DNA of 64,000 nt, taken from Labrenzia sp. THAF82 (GTDB lineage Bacteria > Pseudomonadota > Alphaproteobacteria > Rhizobiales > Stappiaceae). The notes under the pieces were generated by a model, which did no database searches, was not told the origin of the DNA, and saw nothing but the letters and a program-made list of their open reading frames with translations. The translations under genes and the position numbers were made by a program. The DNA lies in assembly GCF_009363435.1 (NCBI RefSeq), contig NZ_CP045354.1, positions 5,732,501 through 5,796,500 of the forward strand, read 5' to 3'. Below are positions 6,924 through 24,799 of the stretch, piece by piece (the first letter of the stretch is position 1; every line of letters begins with the position of its first letter).

Positions 6924-9170
6924 ATGACCGGCGTCTGGAAAGCCAAAATAACATCTTGTGCACTCACACTTTTTCTCACCATCGCTCTTTTTACCAGTTT
7001 ACCGGCACACGCCCAGGACACAGCCTCGTCGCTGCCTGAACCACTGCAGCCAACGGCGATGGAAAAACTCGTTTCGGATCTCGACCCCGAGCAGGTGGAA
7101 GCCCTCACCGATCTGATGCTGCTGTTGCAAGAAAGTGCCGCCAACAAGACCTCGGTCACATCACTGGGTGAACCTCAACCAAGTCTGCTCGAGCAGCTTC
7201 AATCAGCGTTCAGCGGATTCGGTGACATGGTCCTGGGTCACTTCAAAAACCTTCCGTCTCTCTTTACCGGTCTCTTTGCAGGCATCGCGGCGCTGCTCGC
7301 AGGATCCGTCGGAGGTCCTATTCATATCCTGATCGGCTCTATCGCGCTGATCCTCGCCGCAGGCTTTGCCGCAGAGTTTCTGGTCAACCGCCTTACCGCC
7401 GCCCGGCGCGACAAAATCCAGGCACGGTCACCGGAAAGTCTTTTTGAAACCGTGAAGCTGGTGTCGACGCGTGCAGGGCTCGATCTCGGCGGCTTGCTGG
7501 TTTTTGCAATCGTGGCCGTAATCGTTGCGCGCGCGGCCGTCTTTGATCCGGCCACGCGCAGCGTTGCCTTGCAAGCCGTTTTCTGGATCGTCTTCCTGCC
7601 GCGCCTCGTAGCCGCACTATTGCGTTTCGCACTCGCGCCACACAGAAGCGAGTTGCGCCTCGTGACCGCAGACGACGAAACAGCCAAGTCGCTTTACCGC
7701 AGCTTCACCACACTCTTTGCCGTGGTCGGCGTTGCCTTTTTCCTGCGCAACATCATGCAGGTCGCAGGGCAAGATGCCGGTGGAACCTTCCGCTTTTTTG
7801 TCGGTTTCGGTGTCAACGCCTGGATCATTGCCGTGATCTGGAAAGCGCGTCACGGATTGACCAACATCATCCTTGGCGATGACGGCGACGCGACGTCCGG
7901 CCTGGAACGCATGGCCCGGTTCTGGCCGTATTTTTCCATGGCCTTTATCGCCTTCAACTGGCTTCTTGTTCAGTTCACAGCCAGCATGGGTGTCGAAGCC
8001 CTCACCGCTGGTCGCTCGCTGGCCGTAATCGCGCTTGTGGTCTTTGCACCTTTCCTTGACACGATGGTGCGCGGCATTGTCTCTCATGTCGTGCCCCCCA
8101 TGCAGGGTGACGGACCGGTCGCCGAGGCCGCACACATGCAGACCCGGCACAGCTATGTTCGCATTGCCCGTGTCGCACTCCTTGCATTCCTAGTTCTCAT
8201 GGTCGGCCGCATTTACGGTCTCAACCTTCTGGCACTCGGTGCCAATGACGGGTCGGCCGTTGCGCGCAACAGCGTCATCTTTCTGCTGATCCTTGCCGCG
8301 GGCTATCTCGCCTGGGAGATCACCAATCTCTGGGTTGCTCATCAGTTGGCCAAGGACTCGCCGCCGGCCCAGTCGGAAGATGACGACGCCGAAATGGGAG
8401 GAGCCGGTAAGTCGCGCACAGCAACCATCCTGCCGCTCATCCGGATTATCCTGCAGATCACCATTTTGGTCCTGACGGCATTGCTGGCCCTCAGTCAGCT
8501 CGGCATCAACATCACACCGCTTCTGGCGGGTGCAGGTGTCGTAGGTCTTGCGGTCGGGTTTGGCGCACAGACACTGGTCAAGGACGTGGTCTCGGGCATC
8601 TTCTTCCTGATGGACGATGCATTCCGTCTTGGCGAGTTCATCGACACCGGCGGAACCCAGGGTTCCATCGAGAAGATCTCGATCCGCTCGCTGCAACTGC
8701 GCGGTACGCGCGGCGCGGTTCATATCGTCCCTTACGGCGAGATTCCGAAACTCACCAACCTCTCCCGCGACTGGGTGATCATGAAGCTGAAATTCACCGT
8801 GCCCTTCGATACGGACGTTGAAAAGGTGCGCAAGCTCTTCAAGCGGATCGGCCAGGACATCATGGAGATGGAGGAGTTCAAAGAAGACATTCTGGCACCT
8901 TTCAAAGGCCAGGGCGTTGCCGATGTCGACGATGTCGGCATCGTCGTGCGCGGCAAGTTCACCACGAAACCCGGCAAGCAGTTCGGTGTGCGCAAGGAGA
9001 TCTACAAACGCGTCCAACAGGTCTTTGAGGAAAACGGCATCCAGTTTGCCCGCAAGGAAGTGCGTGTACAGCTACCCGAAAACACGGACCTGGACGACAA
9101 GCAGAAGGAAGCCGTCGCCGCCGGTGCCGCAGCCGCCGCTGCCACGGAAACGAAACCCGCAGCACAATAG
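6924..9170 (+). CDS. Mechanosensitive ion channel, large MscS/MscM type
   Basis: 748 aa. A signal peptide (residues 1-30, ending SLPAHA) is followed by an extended periplasmic segment, then about 9-10 membrane helices, and at about residue 540 the conserved MscS pore helix GAGVVGLAVGFGAQTLVKD. The beta domain (FRLGEFIDTGG) and the cytoplasmic alpha/beta vestibule come next. The Ala/Glu-rich tail may be disordered. The frame is open upstream to 6855, but ATG 6924 has a GAGGGGG at the right distance and starts a good signal peptide. It opens in response to membrane tension, protecting against hypo-osmotic shock. Confidence 0.9.
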   Translation: MTGVWKAKITSCALTLFLTIALFTSLPAHAQDTASSLPEPLQPTAMEKLVSDLDPEQVEALTDLMLLLQESAANKTSVTSLGEPQPSLLEQLQSAFSGFGDMVLGHFKNLPSLFTGLFAGIAALLAGSVGGPIHILIGSIALILAAGFAAEFLVNRLTAARRDKIQARSPESLFETVKLVSTRAGLDLGGLLVFAIVAVIVARAAVFDPATRSVALQAVFWIVFLPRLVAALLRFALAPHRSELRLVTADDETAKSLYRSFTTLFAVVGVAFFLRNIMQVAGQDAGGTFRFFVGFGVNAWIIAVIWKARHGLTNIILGDDGDATSGLERMARFWPYFSMAFIAFNWLLVQFTASMGVEALTAGRSLAVIALVVFAPFLDTMVRGIVSHVVPPMQGDGPVAEAAHMQTRHSYVRIARVALLAFLVLMVGRIYGLNLLALGANDGSAVARNSVIFLLILAAGYLAWEITNLWVAHQLAKDSPPAQSEDDDAEMGGAGKSRTATILPLIRIILQITILVLTALLALSQLGINITPLLAGAGVVGLAVGFGAQTLVKDVVSGIFFLMDDAFRLGEFIDTGGTQGSIEKISIRSLQLRGTRGAVHIVPYGEIPKLTNLSRDWVIMKLKFTVPFDTDVEKVRKLFKRIGQDIMEMEEFKEDILAPFKGQGVADVDDVGIVVRGKFTTKPGKQFGVRKEIYKRVQQVFEENGIQFARKEVRVQLPENTDLDDKQKEAVAAGAAAAAATETKPAAQ

Positions 9171-18220: not shown

Positions 18221-19729
18221 ATGGTAAAAACGCAGTCGCTGGTCGCTGGAGAGTGGCTCACATCGGACACGGTGTTTTCCAATGAACCCGCGAGTGGAAC
18301 GGCGGATCAGTTCGCCCAGGGTACGCCTGAGATGATCAACCGGGCATGTGAGGCAGCGGAAGAGGCATTCTGGAGTTATGGCTCCTTGCCTCGAACTGAA
18401 CGCGCTGCCTTCCTGCGCAACGTGGCCACTCAAGTTGACGCGCTCGGTGGTGCAATCACGGCGATGGGCACCAAAGAGACCGGACTGCCGGAAGCCCGGC
18501 TGGAGGGTGAGCGGGGCCGTACGGTCGCGCAAATCCGCTTGTTTGCGGATCACATTGAAGCCGGTGACTATCTCGACGAGCGTCACGAAGCAGCATTACC
18601 TGACCGCTCGCCTCTACCACGTCCGGACCTTAGGCTCATTCAACGGCCCGTCGGACCGGTTGGCATCTTCGGTGCCTCAAACTTTCCGCTCGCATTTTCA
18701 GTTGCAGGTGGCGATACAGCCTCCGCTCTGGCTGCGGGCTGTCCGGTTGTGGTGAAAGGACACCCTGCGCATCCGGGACTTTCCTCCCTGATCGCGCAGG
18801 CGTTTGATGTTGCGATTAGAACGTCGGGTGTTCACCCCGGTGTCTTCAGCATGGTTCATGACGGTGGTCGGATTGTTGGGGAGACTCTCGTCAAACATCC
18901 TCTGATCTCCGCCATCGGCTTTACCGGTTCTCTACGCGGAGGGCGTGCACTTTTCGACCTGTGTGCGCAGCGGCCGATCCCGATCCCGTTCTTTGGAGAA
19001 TTGGGATCCACGAATCCGATGTTCATCTTGCCGGAGGCTCTGGCCAATCGGGCAGACGCCATCGCCCGGAATTGGGCGGGGTCGTTGACGCAAGGGTGCG
19101 GCCAGTTCTGCACCAATCCGGGCATTGTTGTTCTTACGGCAGGCGAGCGGGCGGAGGCCTTCACAGAAGCGGCGACTGAGGCACTTGGCGCTGTCGACGC
19201 CCAGACCATGCTGACCAGCGGGATCGCCTCCGTCTTCGCCGAGGGACGGAAGCAGTTCTGCTCGCACACGGCAACGGCTGTTCTGATTTCTGCAGAAGAT
19301 CGCGCCCGTGAAGCGTCCCCTTGTCTCCTGTCCACGTCCGCAGAGACCTGGCTGGAGAGCGAAGATCTGGGAGAGGAGGTATTCGGGCCGCTCGGTCTCC
19401 TTGTTGTTGCGCGGGATATGGATGAAATGCTGGCTGTTGCAAAGAAACTTCAAGGTCAACTCACTGCCACGCTTCACATGGATGCGGGTGATACGTCCAG
19501 CGCCCTGAAATTGCTGCCTATTCTGGAGCGTAAAGCAGGCCGCGTGCTCGCAAACGGATTCCCGACCGGCGTTGAAGTTTGCGACGCGATGGTCCATGGC
19601 GGGCCATACCCAGCCTCAACGAATTTTGGTGCAACGTCAGTGGGCACTCTTGCAATCCGTCGTTTTTTGCGACCGGTCTGCTATCAAAACATTCCAGCTG
19701 ATATCCTGCCGCTAGATCTCCAAAACTGA
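18221..19729 (+). CDS. Aldehyde dehydrogenase, alpha-ketoglutarate-semialdehyde dehydrogenase type
   Basis: 502 aa, oxidises an aldehyde with NAD(P)+. The substrate-loop GPVGIFGASNFPLAFSVAGG (about residues 147-166) and VVVKGHPAHPG are characteristic of the KGSADH branch. The general base Glu is in FFGELGSTNP (about 259) and the catalytic Cys in GCGQFCTNPG (about 293). Last gene of the operon: the product would be 2-oxoglutarate if it is a true KGSADH. Confidence 0.92.
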   Translation: MVKTQSLVAGEWLTSDTVFSNEPASGTADQFAQGTPEMINRACEAAEEAFWSYGSLPRTERAAFLRNVATQVDALGGAITAMGTKETGLPEARLEGERGRTVAQIRLFADHIEAGDYLDERHEAALPDRSPLPRPDLRLIQRPVGPVGIFGASNFPLAFSVAGGDTASALAAGCPVVVKGHPAHPGLSSLIAQAFDVAIRTSGVHPGVFSMVHDGGRIVGETLVKHPLISAIGFTGSLRGGRALFDLCAQRPIPIPFFGELGSTNPMFILPEALANRADAIARNWAGSLTQGCGQFCTNPGIVVLTAGERAEAFTEAATEALGAVDAQTMLTSGIASVFAEGRKQFCSHTATAVLISAEDRAREASPCLLSTSAETWLESEDLGEEVFGPLGLLVVARDMDEMLAVAKKLQGQLTATLHMDAGDTSSALKLLPILERKAGRVLANGFPTGVEVCDAMVHGGPYPASTNFGATSVGTLAIRRFLRPVCYQNIPADILPLDLQN

Positions 19730-20943: not shown

Positions 20944-21840
20944 TCAGCTGTTGTTTTTCTTGCCAAGCGCTTCAATCAGCGTTCCGAGATTATGCTCGAA
21001 CATGGCAAGGTAGCTGGTGGCGGGTCCACCGCGCTCTGACAGGGCGTCTGAGAACAGACGGCCGCCGATCTCGATCCCTGTTTCATCTGAAATCTGCTGC
21101 ACGAGAGCGGGGCTGGTGATGTTTTCGACGAACAGCGCAGCCGCGCCCTGCTCCTTGAGCTGCGTGATAAGGACAGCCAGGTCACGCGCGGACGGCTCTG
21201 CTTCAGTGTCGATGCCGACCGGCGCGAGGAAGGTCAGGCCATAAGCGTCGGCAAGGTAACCGAAGGCATCATGTGCGGTGACAACCGTGCGGCGGTCTTC
21301 TGGAAGAGCTGCCAGACGTGTACGTGTTTCCTTGTCGAGAGCTTCCAGCTTTGCAATGTAGGCTTCGGCATTCGCGTTGAAATCATCAGCATGGTCCGGC
21401 ATTGCCTTACCCATTGCCTCGGCAATGTTCCGCACATAGATCACCCCGTTTGACAAGGAATTCCAGGCGTGCGGATCTGTTTCGCCATCGACCATGACGG
21501 GCGTCACACCTTCTGTGGCAACGTGGACCGTGGCTTCGGTGCCGGATTCTGAAATCAGCGTTTCGGACCAGGTCTCAAAACCGAGACCGTTGACGAAGAT
21601 GACATCAGACTCAGCCACGGCGCGCGCATCCGCAACAGAGGGCTGATAGACATGCGCATCGGCATCCGGGCCAACAATCGTGGTTACCTTGGCATGATCG
21701 CCGACCACTTGTTCCACCATGTCCCCCAGGATCGAGAAACTGGCAACAATCTTGAGATCGTCGTGTGCATTGGCTGGCACTACGCCGACCATCAACGTTG
21801 TTGCCACGAAACCAGCAGCCAGGGTTTTCAAAAGGGTCAT
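20944..21840 (-). CDS. Metal ABC transporter substrate-binding protein (ZnuA/AztC type)
   Basis: 298 aa. Signal peptide at residues 1-25 (ending PANA). Cluster A-I metal ligands: His in DADAHVYQPS, His in ETDPHAWNS, His in TAHDAFGYLA and the acidic residue in FSDALSE. The segment GIDTEAEPSARD is typical of this family. There is no His-rich loop, resembling AztC rather than classic ZnuA. It overlaps the permease gene by 4 bp. By family it would bind zinc or manganese, but the cobalamin riboswitch in front of the operon points to cobalt (inference). Confidence 0.92.
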   Translation of the reverse strand: MTLLKTLAAGFVATTLMVGVVPANAHDDLKIVASFSILGDMVEQVVGDHAKVTTIVGPDADAHVYQPSVADARAVAESDVIFVNGLGFETWSETLISESGTEATVHVATEGVTPVMVDGETDPHAWNSLSNGVIYVRNIAEAMGKAMPDHADDFNANAEAYIAKLEALDKETRTRLAALPEDRRTVVTAHDAFGYLADAYGLTFLAPVGIDTEAEPSARDLAVLITQLKEQGAAALFVENITSPALVQQISDETGIEIGGRLFSDALSERGGPATSYLAMFEHNLGTLIEALGKKNNS

Positions 21841-22739
21841 TGTATCCTCTCTTCAGTATAGGATTGTTCAACAGACAGTTTTTTTCCAGGCGACGGTTTG
21901 CGGAACCGGCCGCCGAGGCCAAGCGGCCCGAAAAGGGCCGAAATCAGAAAGAAGCCCCCGGCAACCAGAACAATTGCCGGGCCGGATGGGGTTTCGGGAA
22001 AGAGGTACGACAACGTCAATCCGATCCAGCAACTCGCCAACGCAAACAGAAAACCAAGAACGAGCTGGCCAGTAATAGTGCTTGCCCAATACCGGGCAGC
22101 CGTTGCCGGCAGGATCATCAGGCCTACGGCCATTAACGTACCCAATGTCTTGAACGCCGCGAGCAGGTTCAAAACCAGAAGCAGCATGAACCCCTGATCG
22201 ACCAGCCAAGGTCGACGTGTTTGCGCTTCGAAGAAGATCGGATCGCATGTGCTGACGATCAACGGACGCAGGAGAACGGCAAATGCAGCTAGCGTCACCG
22301 TAGCGACTCCGCCGACCAGTATCATCGACCCATCGTCAATCCCAAGGATTGAGCCGAACAGGAAACTCTTGAGAGGGACCGCTGAACCGGCAGCTGAAAG
22401 AATGAAAATGCCGACGGCAAGAGCAATAAGATAAAGCGAGGCGAGACTTGCATCGCTGCGCAAGATCGTTTTGCGCGCGAGCAATGCCGTCAGAATGGCA
22501 ACGCCGACCCCGGCAACCAGCCCGCCAATGAGCAGCGACATCACCGACAATCCGGCGGCAACGAACCCGATGACGATGCCCGGCGTGATCGCATGGGCCA
22601 TGGCCTCGCCGGCAAGAGACAGGCGTCGCAGAACGAGAAAAGCTCCAATTGGTGCAACGGAAGCAGACAGCACAGTCGTTGCCACGAATGCACGCCGCAT
22701 GAAAGCGAAGCTCCACATCTCGGCAAAGAGTTCAAACAT
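21837..22739 (-). CDS. Metal ABC transporter permease (ZnuB/AztB type)
   Basis: 300 aa with about eight hydrophobic segments of the ABC-3 family; LRRLSLAGEAMAHAITPG near residue 40 is the conserved cytoplasmic loop. The start at 22739 (MFELFAEMW) overlaps the end of the ATPase gene by 8 bp and has a GGAA in front; longer in-frame starts lie inside the ATPase gene. Its stop overlaps the binding-protein start. Confidence 0.92.
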   Translation of the reverse strand: MFELFAEMWSFAFMRRAFVATTVLSASVAPIGAFLVLRRLSLAGEAMAHAITPGIVIGFVAAGLSVMSLLIGGLVAGVGVAILTALLARKTILRSDASLASLYLIALAVGIFILSAAGSAVPLKSFLFGSILGIDDGSMILVGGVATVTLAAFAVLLRPLIVSTCDPIFFEAQTRRPWLVDQGFMLLLVLNLLAAFKTLGTLMAVGLMILPATAARYWASTITGQLVLGFLFALASCWIGLTLSYLFPETPSGPAIVLVAGGFFLISALFGPLGLGGRFRKPSPGKKLSVEQSYTEERIQ

Positions 22740-23490
22740 GGGTGGGTTCCCTGTGGTCATAGGAGCCCTTGAACATCCAGGATGCCTGGCTTTGAGACAG
22801 ATAGCCTTGAGCAACCAGCTGATCTTGCGTCAGAACGTCTTTCACCAAACCATGAGTGGCTGTTCCGTTGCCGAGGAGCAGCGCATGACTGCAATGGTCA
22901 AGGACCGAAGACAGGTCATGGACAACCAGCACCACTGCCCGACCCTCTTGACGCCATCGCTTGATGATCGACAGGAGATGCGCCTCAGTGCTCTGGTCGA
23001 CCGCCGCGAAAGGCTCGTCCAGCAGGATCAAAGGGGCGTCTTGCAGAATGACACGAGCAAAAAGAGCACGCTGCAATTGCCCACCGGAAAGCGTATGAAG
23101 CGAGCGGTCTGCCAGTTCAAGAATGCCAGCCTCGTCCAGCGCCGCTGCCACCCGATTGCGGCCGCTGCGGCCCAGACCCGACCAAAGGCCAAAGCCACGC
23201 CACGCCCCCATCGCAGCAAGGTCGCGGACACGGATCGGAAAGCGCCTGTCAAACTCAGTCAACTGCGCCAGGTAGCCAATCTCCCGTGGACGTCCCGACG
23301 GCCAGTTCAGGCGTCCGCAAAGAGGCTCCATCAAGCCAAGCAACATTTTGACGAAGGTACTCTTGCCGGAACCATTCGCACCGAGCACCGCCAGTGTCGC
23401 CCCCCTGTCGACATCCAGGGACAGGTGCTTGAACAAAGTTAGATCGGGATATCCGAGGGACAGATTTCGCAGCTCCAGGACGGGTGCCAT
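22732..23490 (-). CDS. Metal ABC transporter ATP-binding protein (ZnuC/AztA type)
   Basis: 252 aa. Walker A GANGSGKST (about residue 34), signature LSGGQLQRALFARVI, Walker B LILLDEPFAAVDQ and switch VVHD are intact. The start is ATG 23490 (MAPVLELRN), which overlaps the TGA of a 45-codon membrane-peptide ORF (TGATG). An in-frame start at 23580 would swallow that ORF and gives an unlikely Cys/Arg-rich leader. Confidence 0.92.
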   Translation of the reverse strand: MAPVLELRNLSLGYPDLTLFKHLSLDVDRGATLAVLGANGSGKSTFVKMLLGLMEPLCGRLNWPSGRPREIGYLAQLTEFDRRFPIRVRDLAAMGAWRGFGLWSGLGRSGRNRVAAALDEAGILELADRSLHTLSGGQLQRALFARVILQDAPLILLDEPFAAVDQSTEAHLLSIIKRWRQEGRAVVLVVHDLSSVLDHCSHALLLGNGTATHGLVKDVLTQDQLVAQGYLSQSQASWMFKGSYDHREPTHV

Positions 23491-23627
23491 CAGAGTACCG
23501 CCAGAATGAAAAACCAAAGAAGGCCTGACAGGGCAATTGCACCTGCGGCCAGGGCAACGACACTCATCTCGGTCAGGCATGGAAGCCGCGTGTCGTGCAT
23601 TTCGCGAAGGGGATCACGCTGAGCCAT
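23490..23627 (-). CDS. Small single-span membrane protein upstream of the metal-ABC ATPase
   Basis: 45 aa: a charged N-terminus (MAQRDPLREMHDTRLPCL) followed by one hydrophobic helix (about residues 21-44). GGAG lies 7 bases before the ATG, and the TGA overlaps the ATG of the ATPase gene, so coupled translation is expected. I do not recognise a family. It could be a regulatory or stabilising subunit of the importer, comparable in size to other one-helix accessory subunits (inference). Confidence 0.65.
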   Translation of the reverse strand: MAQRDPLREMHDTRLPCLTEMSVVALAAGAIALSGLLWFFILAVL

Positions 23628-23678
23628 CAGTCCGCTCCGGAACGTGACGCAACGATCAAGGTCAGCAAGGCCTCGAAA

Positions 23679-23798
23679 CTAGGCCTGCTCCGGTTTTGCC
23701 GCGATAGTATTGGTCTTGTGGTCTGGCGCATCGCCCTCTCCGTCTGGACGGGGATCTGGCAGCACCACACTATTGAACGGCTGAGCCGCTTTGCACAT
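23679..23798 (-). CDS. Small ORF directly behind the cobalamin riboswitch
   Basis: 39 codons with GGGAG placed 6 bases before the ATG. The peptide is polar, Pro/Asp-rich and has single Cys and His residues; no family recognised. Its ribosome-binding site follows a CCGGG/CCCGG hairpin (23810-23829) downstream of the riboswitch aptamer, so it is the first start codon the riboswitch could control. It may be a leader peptide or a genuine small protein. Confidence 0.45.
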   Translation of the reverse strand: MCKAAQPFNSVVLPDPRPDGEGDAPDHKTNTIAAKPEQA

Positions 23799-23842
23799 GG
23801 TCGTCTCCCACCGGGACACCCCGCCCGGTCAAGTTAAGATTG

Positions 23843-24038
23843 CGATGGCAGGTCTCCTGACTCGCGGGTCGAAGCTTTCCCGTTCCTTCCCGGGCCGTTG
23901 GTCGACAGGGCCCAGTGGCATTATCGGGGTCGCTCACCGCTCACAGTTGCGGGGGCAGTCACGGATTTAGCGCCCTTGCGGCTCTTCCTCACCGTGTTCC
24001 CTTTTCATCTTGCAGCCATGTTCATTCTGCAAGAACCA
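23843..24038 (-). promoter_or_regulatory. Cobalamin (B12) riboswitch
   Basis: On the minus strand the conserved elements occur in order: GGTTCTTGCAGA, GATGAAAAGGGAACACGGTG, GACTGCCCCCGCAACTGTGA, then GCCACTGGG, CCGGGAAGG and the B12 box GAGTCAGGAGACCTGCC. These are the hallmark sequences of the adenosylcobalamin aptamer. It precedes two small ORFs and the metal-ABC genes; high cobalamin should reduce their expression, probably through sequestering the translation start (a hairpin lies just before the first Shine-Dalgarno). Confidence 0.96.
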
Positions 24039-24229
24039 TCAGCGGGCAAACTATTTTCTCGTTTCGAAATAATCAACACGTATTTGCCCTAATGGACTGA
24101 GCCTGGCGCCCTCGAAAAAGCGCCAAGGAGAGCTTCACCTGTTTGCGGCGAAGTCCTGTTTCGACCCCGAATTGGACTTCCGTCTTGGGGGACTATCTCG
24201 AAAAATGTGCCGACACCGCGTCCCGTGCC

Positions 24230-24799
24230 TCACTTTTCAAAAATTGAGAACGACCAGTAGTCCTCAGATGTGCGCTGAACCTTTTGCCACCCCAAACCTG
24301 TCAATTCGCGCGCAATCAGACGGTTGATAATTCCATGACCCAGTAAAACAGCGCTGCTGTGTTTCGCTGCTGCGTCGCATAGCGTGGCGGTGCATTTTTG
24401 GGCGCGTATCTTTGCATCTTGAATGGACTCCCCGTTCTGCGAAAATCCAAAGAACCAGAGCAGCCTAAAAATGAGAGCCCAACTGAAGAAAGACAATTTG
24501 GGGCGCTTCCATTCCAGAAAGGGCAAATCGGATTCTCGAAATTCCGGGTCGATCACTGCTCTATCTTTCAGTCCAAGCCTTTCAATCGACAGGGTGGCTC
24601 TGGGCAGGTTGCTGCTCAGCGCGATCGCGCATGAGCCGGCGATTGCCTTGGAGGCCAACGGAGGAAAACTGTCGCTGGACAAAGCTGCTGTCTCATAGCG
24701 CTTTACAATCTCTCCTACTGTTTTTGGAGAAACCCATTCCTTCTTGCAAGCGTCGAGATCGAGTTCCGGTTTGCCGTGTCTCATCAATACTATCTGCAT
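24230..24799 (-). CDS. Histidine phosphatase (phosphoglycerate-mutase-like) family protein
   Basis: 189 aa. The catalytic motif MRHGKPE is at residues 6-12 and the second catalytic His is in VLLGHGIINR near residue 151. Start ATG 24799 (MQIVLMRHG) has AGGAA in front; the longer frame to 24847 adds an unlikely leader. The middle hydrophobic stretch FFSWALIFRLLWFFGFS is unusual and might attach it to the membrane. The substrate is unknown. Confidence 0.85.
   Translation of the reverse strand: MQIVLMRHGKPELDLDACKKEWVSPKTVGEIVKRYETAALSSDSFPPLASKAIAGSCAIALSSNLPRATLSIERLGLKDRAVIDPEFRESDLPFLEWKRPKLSFFSWALIFRLLWFFGFSQNGESIQDAKIRAQKCTATLCDAAAKHSSAVLLGHGIINRLIARELTGLGWQKVQRTSEDYWSFSIFEK

Follow-up and report, generated by a model that had tools for sequence, protein, structure and literature searches.

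A cobalamin riboswitch lies ahead of a four-gene operon for a metal importer of the ATP-binding cassette (ABC) type in Labrenzia sp. THAF82. We describe this locus within a 64,000-nucleotide stretch of contig NZ_CP045354.1 (positions 5,732,501 to 5,796,500), called the window below; every feature of the operon is on its minus strand. The riboswitch aptamer (RF00174) spans 23830–24055 and aligns with model positions 1–189 of 189 at 130.2 bits in cmscan (cut-off 31.5, E 1.9e-32). It is the single Rfam match at the gathering threshold in the whole window; the host genome has three RF00174 matches. Beyond the aptamer come a putative P13-like regulatory hairpin (23811–23828; a five-base-pair stem with the loop CGGGGTGT), a 39-codon leader open reading frame (ORF; 23679–23798) that starts at a Shine-Dalgarno-like site and ATG beside the hairpin, and a gene for a predicted single-helix membrane protein of 45 residues (23490–23627). 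The importer genes follow: an AztA-like ABC ATPase (22732–23490; Pfam ABC_tran, 89.0 bits), an AztB-like permease of the ABC-3 family (21837–22739; Pfam ABC-3, 155.8 bits), and a periplasmic metal-binding protein of cluster A-I (20944–21840; Pfam ZnuA, 283.9 bits). The stop codon of the small gene overlaps the ATPase start in the string TGATG, and by coordinates the ATPase and permease genes overlap by 8 nucleotides and the permease and binding-protein genes by 4.

An earlier note on this DNA had placed an adenosylcobalamin aptamer ahead of a cluster A-I metal importer, and both halves of that claim hold: Rfam returns a full-length aptamer in the region indicated, and Pfam recognizes ABC_tran, ABC-3, and ZnuA in the three importer proteins. 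Its range of 22732–24038 marks the right locus, with the ends of the aptamer and hairpin now set as above. The range omits the permease and binding-protein genes (20944–22739), and the note overlooked the small membrane-protein gene as well as the position of that gene after the riboswitch hairpin in divergent relatives.

The pairing of riboswitch and importer is conserved well beyond the window. Using the binding protein as query, we collected loci from the best 80 of 88 confirmed relatives. An orthologous set of 51 loci (L005–L052, L073, L081, and L082) shares 63–89% identity with the query, and the other 29 share 42–52%. Going by their titles, most of the 51 come from Alphaproteobacteria, with the closest from Roseibium; two close operon relatives, L047 and L038, come from bins labelled Gammaproteobacteria and Anaerolineae, reflecting either misbinning or transfer. 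Two loci (L029 and L049) end before the leader, leaving 49 that are testable. A riboswitch precedes the operon in 48 of these by Rfam and motif scan combined, 13 of them by motif only. The motif scan alone recovers the riboswitch core in 46 of the 49, and Rfam, run on 36 of them, finds the riboswitch in 35, including the motif-missed L040 and L042. In the 29 distant loci the motif is found in none, and Rfam detects no cobalamin riboswitch in the six of these that were scanned. Within a sample of 41 genomes of the genus, 11 (hereafter carriers) encode the permease at an identity of at least 85%, and in all 11 an RF00174 match lies ahead of the operon by coordinates. Conservation thus backs the proposal that the riboswitch controls a cluster A-I importer, and the riboswitch together with its conserved link to this importer and the small gene is well supported. 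A class-wide sample of 153 genomes was set aside, as the host alone had a close permease (next best, 49% identity).

Two further points raised in the earlier note concern other routes of control. A scan of 23400–24300 for sigma-70-like promoters found none, whereas the note had named such a promoter, freeing the genes from the riboswitch, as a refutation; this is a weak test with little power, because none was found upstream of the riboswitch either. The absence of a Zur-like site by the operon also stands: a Zur-like stretch picked out by eye before the host znuC has no counterpart nearby, and it matches the window only twice with three mismatches (at 19436 and 52945), fewer than expected by chance.

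Between the aptamer and the genes, the hairpin pattern could be located in 47 leaders, the window included, and is not found in L010 and L042. Its loop, CGGGGTGT, is nearly constant across leaders. For the alignment we kept 37 of the 47 leaders, dropping four near-copies and six in another register, of which L038 was mislocated. Among the 28 distinct rows of the 37, 97.1% of stem cells pair, three of the five pairs have changes on both sides, and the covariation score is reached by none of 500 shuffles. By analogy with the L5–L13 kissing contact described for B12 riboswitches (PMC7689651, PMC11260477), the loop CGGGGTGT may base-pair with the aptamer's CCCCGC loop.

In 43 of the 47 leaders, the hairpin is followed by an ATG that has a Shine-Dalgarno-like site within the 16 nucleotides before it. 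This ATG is the start of the small gene itself in L038, L039, L045, and L048 and, judging from the peptides, in L044 and L051 as well. In most of the remaining leaders, as in the window, it opens the leader ORF, whose sequence is variable. We considered the leader ORF as a conserved peptide and found no support for this, because its ratio of nonsynonymous to synonymous differences (pN/pS) is no better in frame (0.79) than in the shifted frames (0.64 and 1.16). Two loci, L005 and L006, have a further leader ORF of 34–35 codons that ends at or over the start of the small gene.

The small gene, 45 codons between the hairpin and the ATPase gene with its TGA overlapping the ATPase ATG, is present in 48 of the 49 testable loci. 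A motif extracted it from 46 of the 49 and from the window, missing L042, L044, and L051; L044 and L051 carry divergent versions (profile E 0.0015 and 0.00036), and L042 has none that is recognizable. In the 41 genus genomes, a profile detects it in the 11 carriers and nowhere else. Its coding sequence is under purifying selection, with a pN/pS of 0.24 (76 pairs) versus 1.21 and 1.66 in the shifted frames, computed over the last 28 codons in the 43 of 47 rows having a Cys-Leu-Thr type core. AlphaFold predicts one helix spanning residues 18–44 (mean predicted local distance difference test score, 75.7). Searches of 30 members against Pfam and NCBIfam returned only weak matches by single members (best E 0.024). 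PDB sequences, searched with a profile, gave no match below E 0.06.

Could the small gene serve only as a regulatory leader ORF, its translation setting initiation at the ATPase gene and its peptide without function? Such a role would fit any substrate, and it is in keeping with leader ORFs acting through translation in M. tuberculosis B12 leaders (PMC11260477) and with the junction itself: of 47 rows, 36 have the small-gene stop overlapping the ATPase ATG by one nucleotide, five have the two adjoining, and six differ (ATPase starts extrapolated from tblastn alignments). We nonetheless think it unlikely, if worth keeping in mind, as the protein sequence is conserved in the alignment, unlike that of the adjacent leader ORF, and four divergent rows keep the small gene even though it ends 19–24 nucleotides before the extrapolated ATPase start. 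The single-helix protein most likely associates with the permease in an accessory role. CbiN assists CbiM, and the operon could tentatively be read as encoding a novel kind of cobalt importer, in which a dedicated single-helix subunit, encoded at the head of the riboswitch-controlled operon, aids the metal selectivity or activity of a cluster A-I ABC transporter in a CbiN-like manner; we regard this proposal as plausible, short of probable.

By family alone, the importer would be called a zinc or manganese transporter. It has what marks a cluster A-I importer, namely a binding protein of the ZnuA/TroA fold with conserved ligands, an ABC-3 permease, and an ABC ATPase; the metals given for this class are zinc, manganese, or iron (PMC7731109). 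The closest solved structures to the binding protein by Foldseek are those of AztC, at 43–47% identity; this confirms the fold and gives no clue to the metal. The predicted ligands are H63, H124, H190, and D265. The three histidines are kept in all 23 aligned binding-protein rows, and D265 aligns with an AztC aspartate, replaced by glutamate in L061, L069, and L083 (rows at 45–47% identity). H124 and H190 align pairwise with residues 125 and 191 in an AztC construct lacking the loop, which we take to be His138 and His204, ligands named in PMC7463823. Sequence and alignment bear out the earlier statement that the protein lacks a His-rich loop.

The regulation and the genome context point to cobalt. 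All 41 genus genomes encode CobN, and CbiM, present in 22 of them, occurs in none of the 11 carriers and in 22 of the 30 non-carriers (Fisher p 2.4e-5). At least one of the new system, CbiM, and CbtA is present in 39 of the 41, G160 and G224 having none of the three. The host genome gives no match to CbtA, CbiM, or HupE at E 0.001. It does have a znuBC locus adjacent to a Fur-family gene, presumably zur, and a SitABCD-like operon whose binding protein matches ZnuA, so zinc and manganese have other candidate importers. Because of the riboswitch, the ubiquity of CobN, the absence of CbiM from the carriers, and these separate Zur-ZnuBC and SitABCD-like loci, we conclude by inference that the substrate is probably cobalt. 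The ‘probable cobalt uptake’ of the earlier note thereby survives as the best reading, with the reservations that the ligands do not discriminate and that the anticorrelation with CbiM is not significant once phylogeny is considered.

Several observations weigh against cobalt uptake under riboswitch control. L047 keeps the operon and the small gene without a riboswitch (Rfam), the sole testable locus to do so. The folding energy of the hairpin region is worse than that of shuffles (z 1.98) and lends no support, so that covariation is what argues for the hairpin. Mapped on a cobN tree, the new system requires five changes and CbiM eight, and only four independent contrasts fall on supported branches (on average 2.3 in opposite directions, 0 in the same direction, and 1.7 without difference), with a median p of 0.5; the exclusion of CbiM is accordingly suggestive only. 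Furthermore, CbiM is present in 6 of the 39 carrier genomes reached through the orthologous loci, a set not independent of the genus sample: it includes several Roseibium or Labrenzia genomes, and L006 and G195 come from one and the same sequence. CbtA scores above its cut-off in 11 of the 41 genus genomes, two of them carriers (p 0.69). HupE/UreJ is found in 36 of the 41, with strong matches in 5 of the 11 carriers, and shows no mutual exclusion with the new system. The survey covered CbiM, CbtA, HupE/UreJ, and NicO, CbtA being the one protein it took from the candidate cobalt transporters CbtAB, CbtC-G, and CbtX listed in PMC2667541. Another host operon, preceded by the third cobalamin riboswitch of the genome (L160; C1:2854400–2858500), encodes DUF1636, an ATPase, and a class-II binding protein that resembles F420-0 and siderophore/BtuF models below cut-off. 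Among the 41 genus genomes, 28 encode this protein at an identity of at least 73%, and 10 of the 11 carriers are in that number; the operon might move cobalt or corrinoids too, which is a caveat to any claim of a sole importer. Finally, the set of three histidines and one aspartate is that of zinc-specific AztC, and the site gives no argument for cobalt.

We did not count NicO, present in all 41 genus genomes, as an importer, because the host copy is a weak match (56.2 of 195 bits) to a nickel/cobalt efflux model and also contains a DUF1007 segment. Separately, CbiM-like proteins of about 230 residues (weak matches to the CbiM model, at about 50–62 bits) are encoded at L162:622–1311, for example, and also in other genus genomes; in the cases compared by coordinates (G212, G176, and G223), they start about 50–60 nucleotides after cobalamin riboswitches.

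Zinc is the main rival to cobalt. The importer would then be an AztABC paralogue, placed under B12 control as B12-short cells shift to zinc-dependent, B12-independent enzymes such as MetE and their zinc demand rises. Its closest characterized relatives and structures are the zinc-specific AztABC and AztC, and with ligands identical to those of AztC, zinc and cobalt cannot be told apart from the site. The host, however, also has its znuBC locus beside the presumed zur, the proteins miss all three NCBIfam equivalog cut-offs of the Azt family (AztA, 199 of 220 bits; AztB, 204.2 of 280; AztC, 285.4 of 350), and the lack of CbiM in the 11 genus carriers is not predicted by a zinc role. We judge a zinc importer improbable.

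A manganese or iron importer, supplying B12-independent enzymes such as the manganese-dependent class Ib ribonucleotide reductase, is very unlikely. Group III of the cluster A-I proteins includes AztC; its members usually handle manganese or iron, and three histidines with one aspartate are a possible set among them (PMC7731109). Two loci carry a second, divergent cobalamin riboswitch (L017:3495–3686 and L021 at about 3679, both minus strand) before genes that we read as nrdH, nrdI, and nrdE, the B12-independent ribonucleotide reductase; in L017 the first of these genes matches glutaredoxin. This arrangement is confined to 2 of 49 loci, however, and the host has its SitABCD-like operon. Manganese is made less likely, moreover, by the third ligand, as the SitA-like protein of the host has glutamate where the importer has H190. 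Import of a corrinoid instead of a metal ion is scarcely credible: B12 riboswitches often control corrinoid transporters (established knowledge; PMC3766115), but the importer's binding protein is of the cluster A-I metal type and keeps all four ligands, and the separate riboswitch-linked host operon with a class-II binding protein would suit corrinoids better.

Taking cobalt as the probable substrate, we envisage an operon for high-affinity cobalt uptake that abundant B12 would switch off. When cobalamin is scarce, the hairpin beyond the aptamer would leave the Shine-Dalgarno site free. Ribosomes would start at this freed site, which serves the leader ORF in THAF82 and the small gene itself in six divergent relatives, and the overlapping stop and start codons would carry translation from the small membrane protein to the ATPase, the permease, and the binding protein. 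Bound cobalamin would favor a kissing loop between aptamer and hairpin, which may hide the Shine-Dalgarno site. In the periplasm, the binding protein would capture Co2+ with its three histidines and one aspartate, and the ABC-3 permease and ATPase would import it for the CobN-type cobaltochelatase.

The nearest known system by sequence is the zinc importer AztABC(D) of Paracoccus denitrificans. AztC is the nearest solved binding protein, with the same four ligand positions, and the Azt models are the best NCBIfam models for all three importer proteins. The operon described here nevertheless falls below the three equivalog cut-offs, lacks the His loop, and adds a small membrane protein and a cobalamin riboswitch; no aztD is present among the two flanking ORFs (Pfam His_Phos_1 and Acetyltransf_1), the only part of the genome in which it was sought. 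CbtJKL of Sinorhizobium meliloti resembles it in regulation, being an ABC importer for cobalt that a cobalamin riboswitch controls, although CbtJ is BtuF-like and belongs to another class of binding protein (PMC7689651). Within a 30-kb stretch of S. meliloti pSymB, a riboswitch lies beside a homologue matched at 27% by the class-II protein P0004. We take this homologue, which came without annotation, to be CbtJ. Our importer's binding protein has no tblastn match in the same stretch even at E 10, and it is not BtuF-like (class II) by Pfam, where it matches only ZnuA at E 0.001. CbiMNQO, an energy-coupling factor (ECF) system, and CbtAB are likewise predicted or shown cobalt importers under cobalamin riboswitches and may do the same job in related genomes, but their protein families are unrelated to the importer. 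For the mode of control, ppe2 of M. tuberculosis offers a parallel, with a B12 riboswitch that masks a short-ORF start and translation coupled to the next gene (PMC11260477); here, the chain would span four transporter genes, as the overlaps suggest.

Cobalamin regulons are reported to hold 12 cobalt-transport orthologue groups (PMC3766115). A study of 42 Roseobacter genomes lists TroA-family binding proteins under manganese and zinc and a recognized cobalt uptake system in 76% of the genomes (PMC4771312). In the portions of the literature covered by our search we found no description of a cluster A-I importer controlled by a cobalamin riboswitch or of the small protein; an earlier prediction may exist in PMC3766115 or RegPrecise. 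If our reading is right, A-I importers controlled by B12 may provide a cobalt uptake route so far missing from the picture for marine bacteria that furnish algae with the vitamin; the importer clade, to which databases assign zinc or manganese, would then need a different substrate annotation. The 45-residue membrane protein, easily missed by annotation, is a candidate subunit of a type new to ABC importers.

Conserved neighbors provide no clue to the substrate. Among the 30 largest clusters in 52 stretches, with ORFs overlapping the operon genes or leader set aside, no cluster beyond the operon genes occurs in more than seven stretches; a LysR-type gene appears in five, and the rest are mostly common to near relatives. 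Just upstream of the riboswitch in the window is a histidine phosphatase gene (24230–24799, minus strand), which matches CobC (alpha-ribazole phosphatase) at 23.2 bits against a cut-off of 162.9. Several Roseibium-type genomes have a second cobalamin riboswitch just after the binding-protein gene; in L007 and L159 an ORF of about 73–82 codons with no Pfam match follows it (positions concerned: L007:6990–7202 and 7316–7537; L159:3443–3653, minus strand). These second riboswitches are seen by Rfam in L007, by coordinates in G210, G219, G222, and G225, and by motif in L008 and L050.

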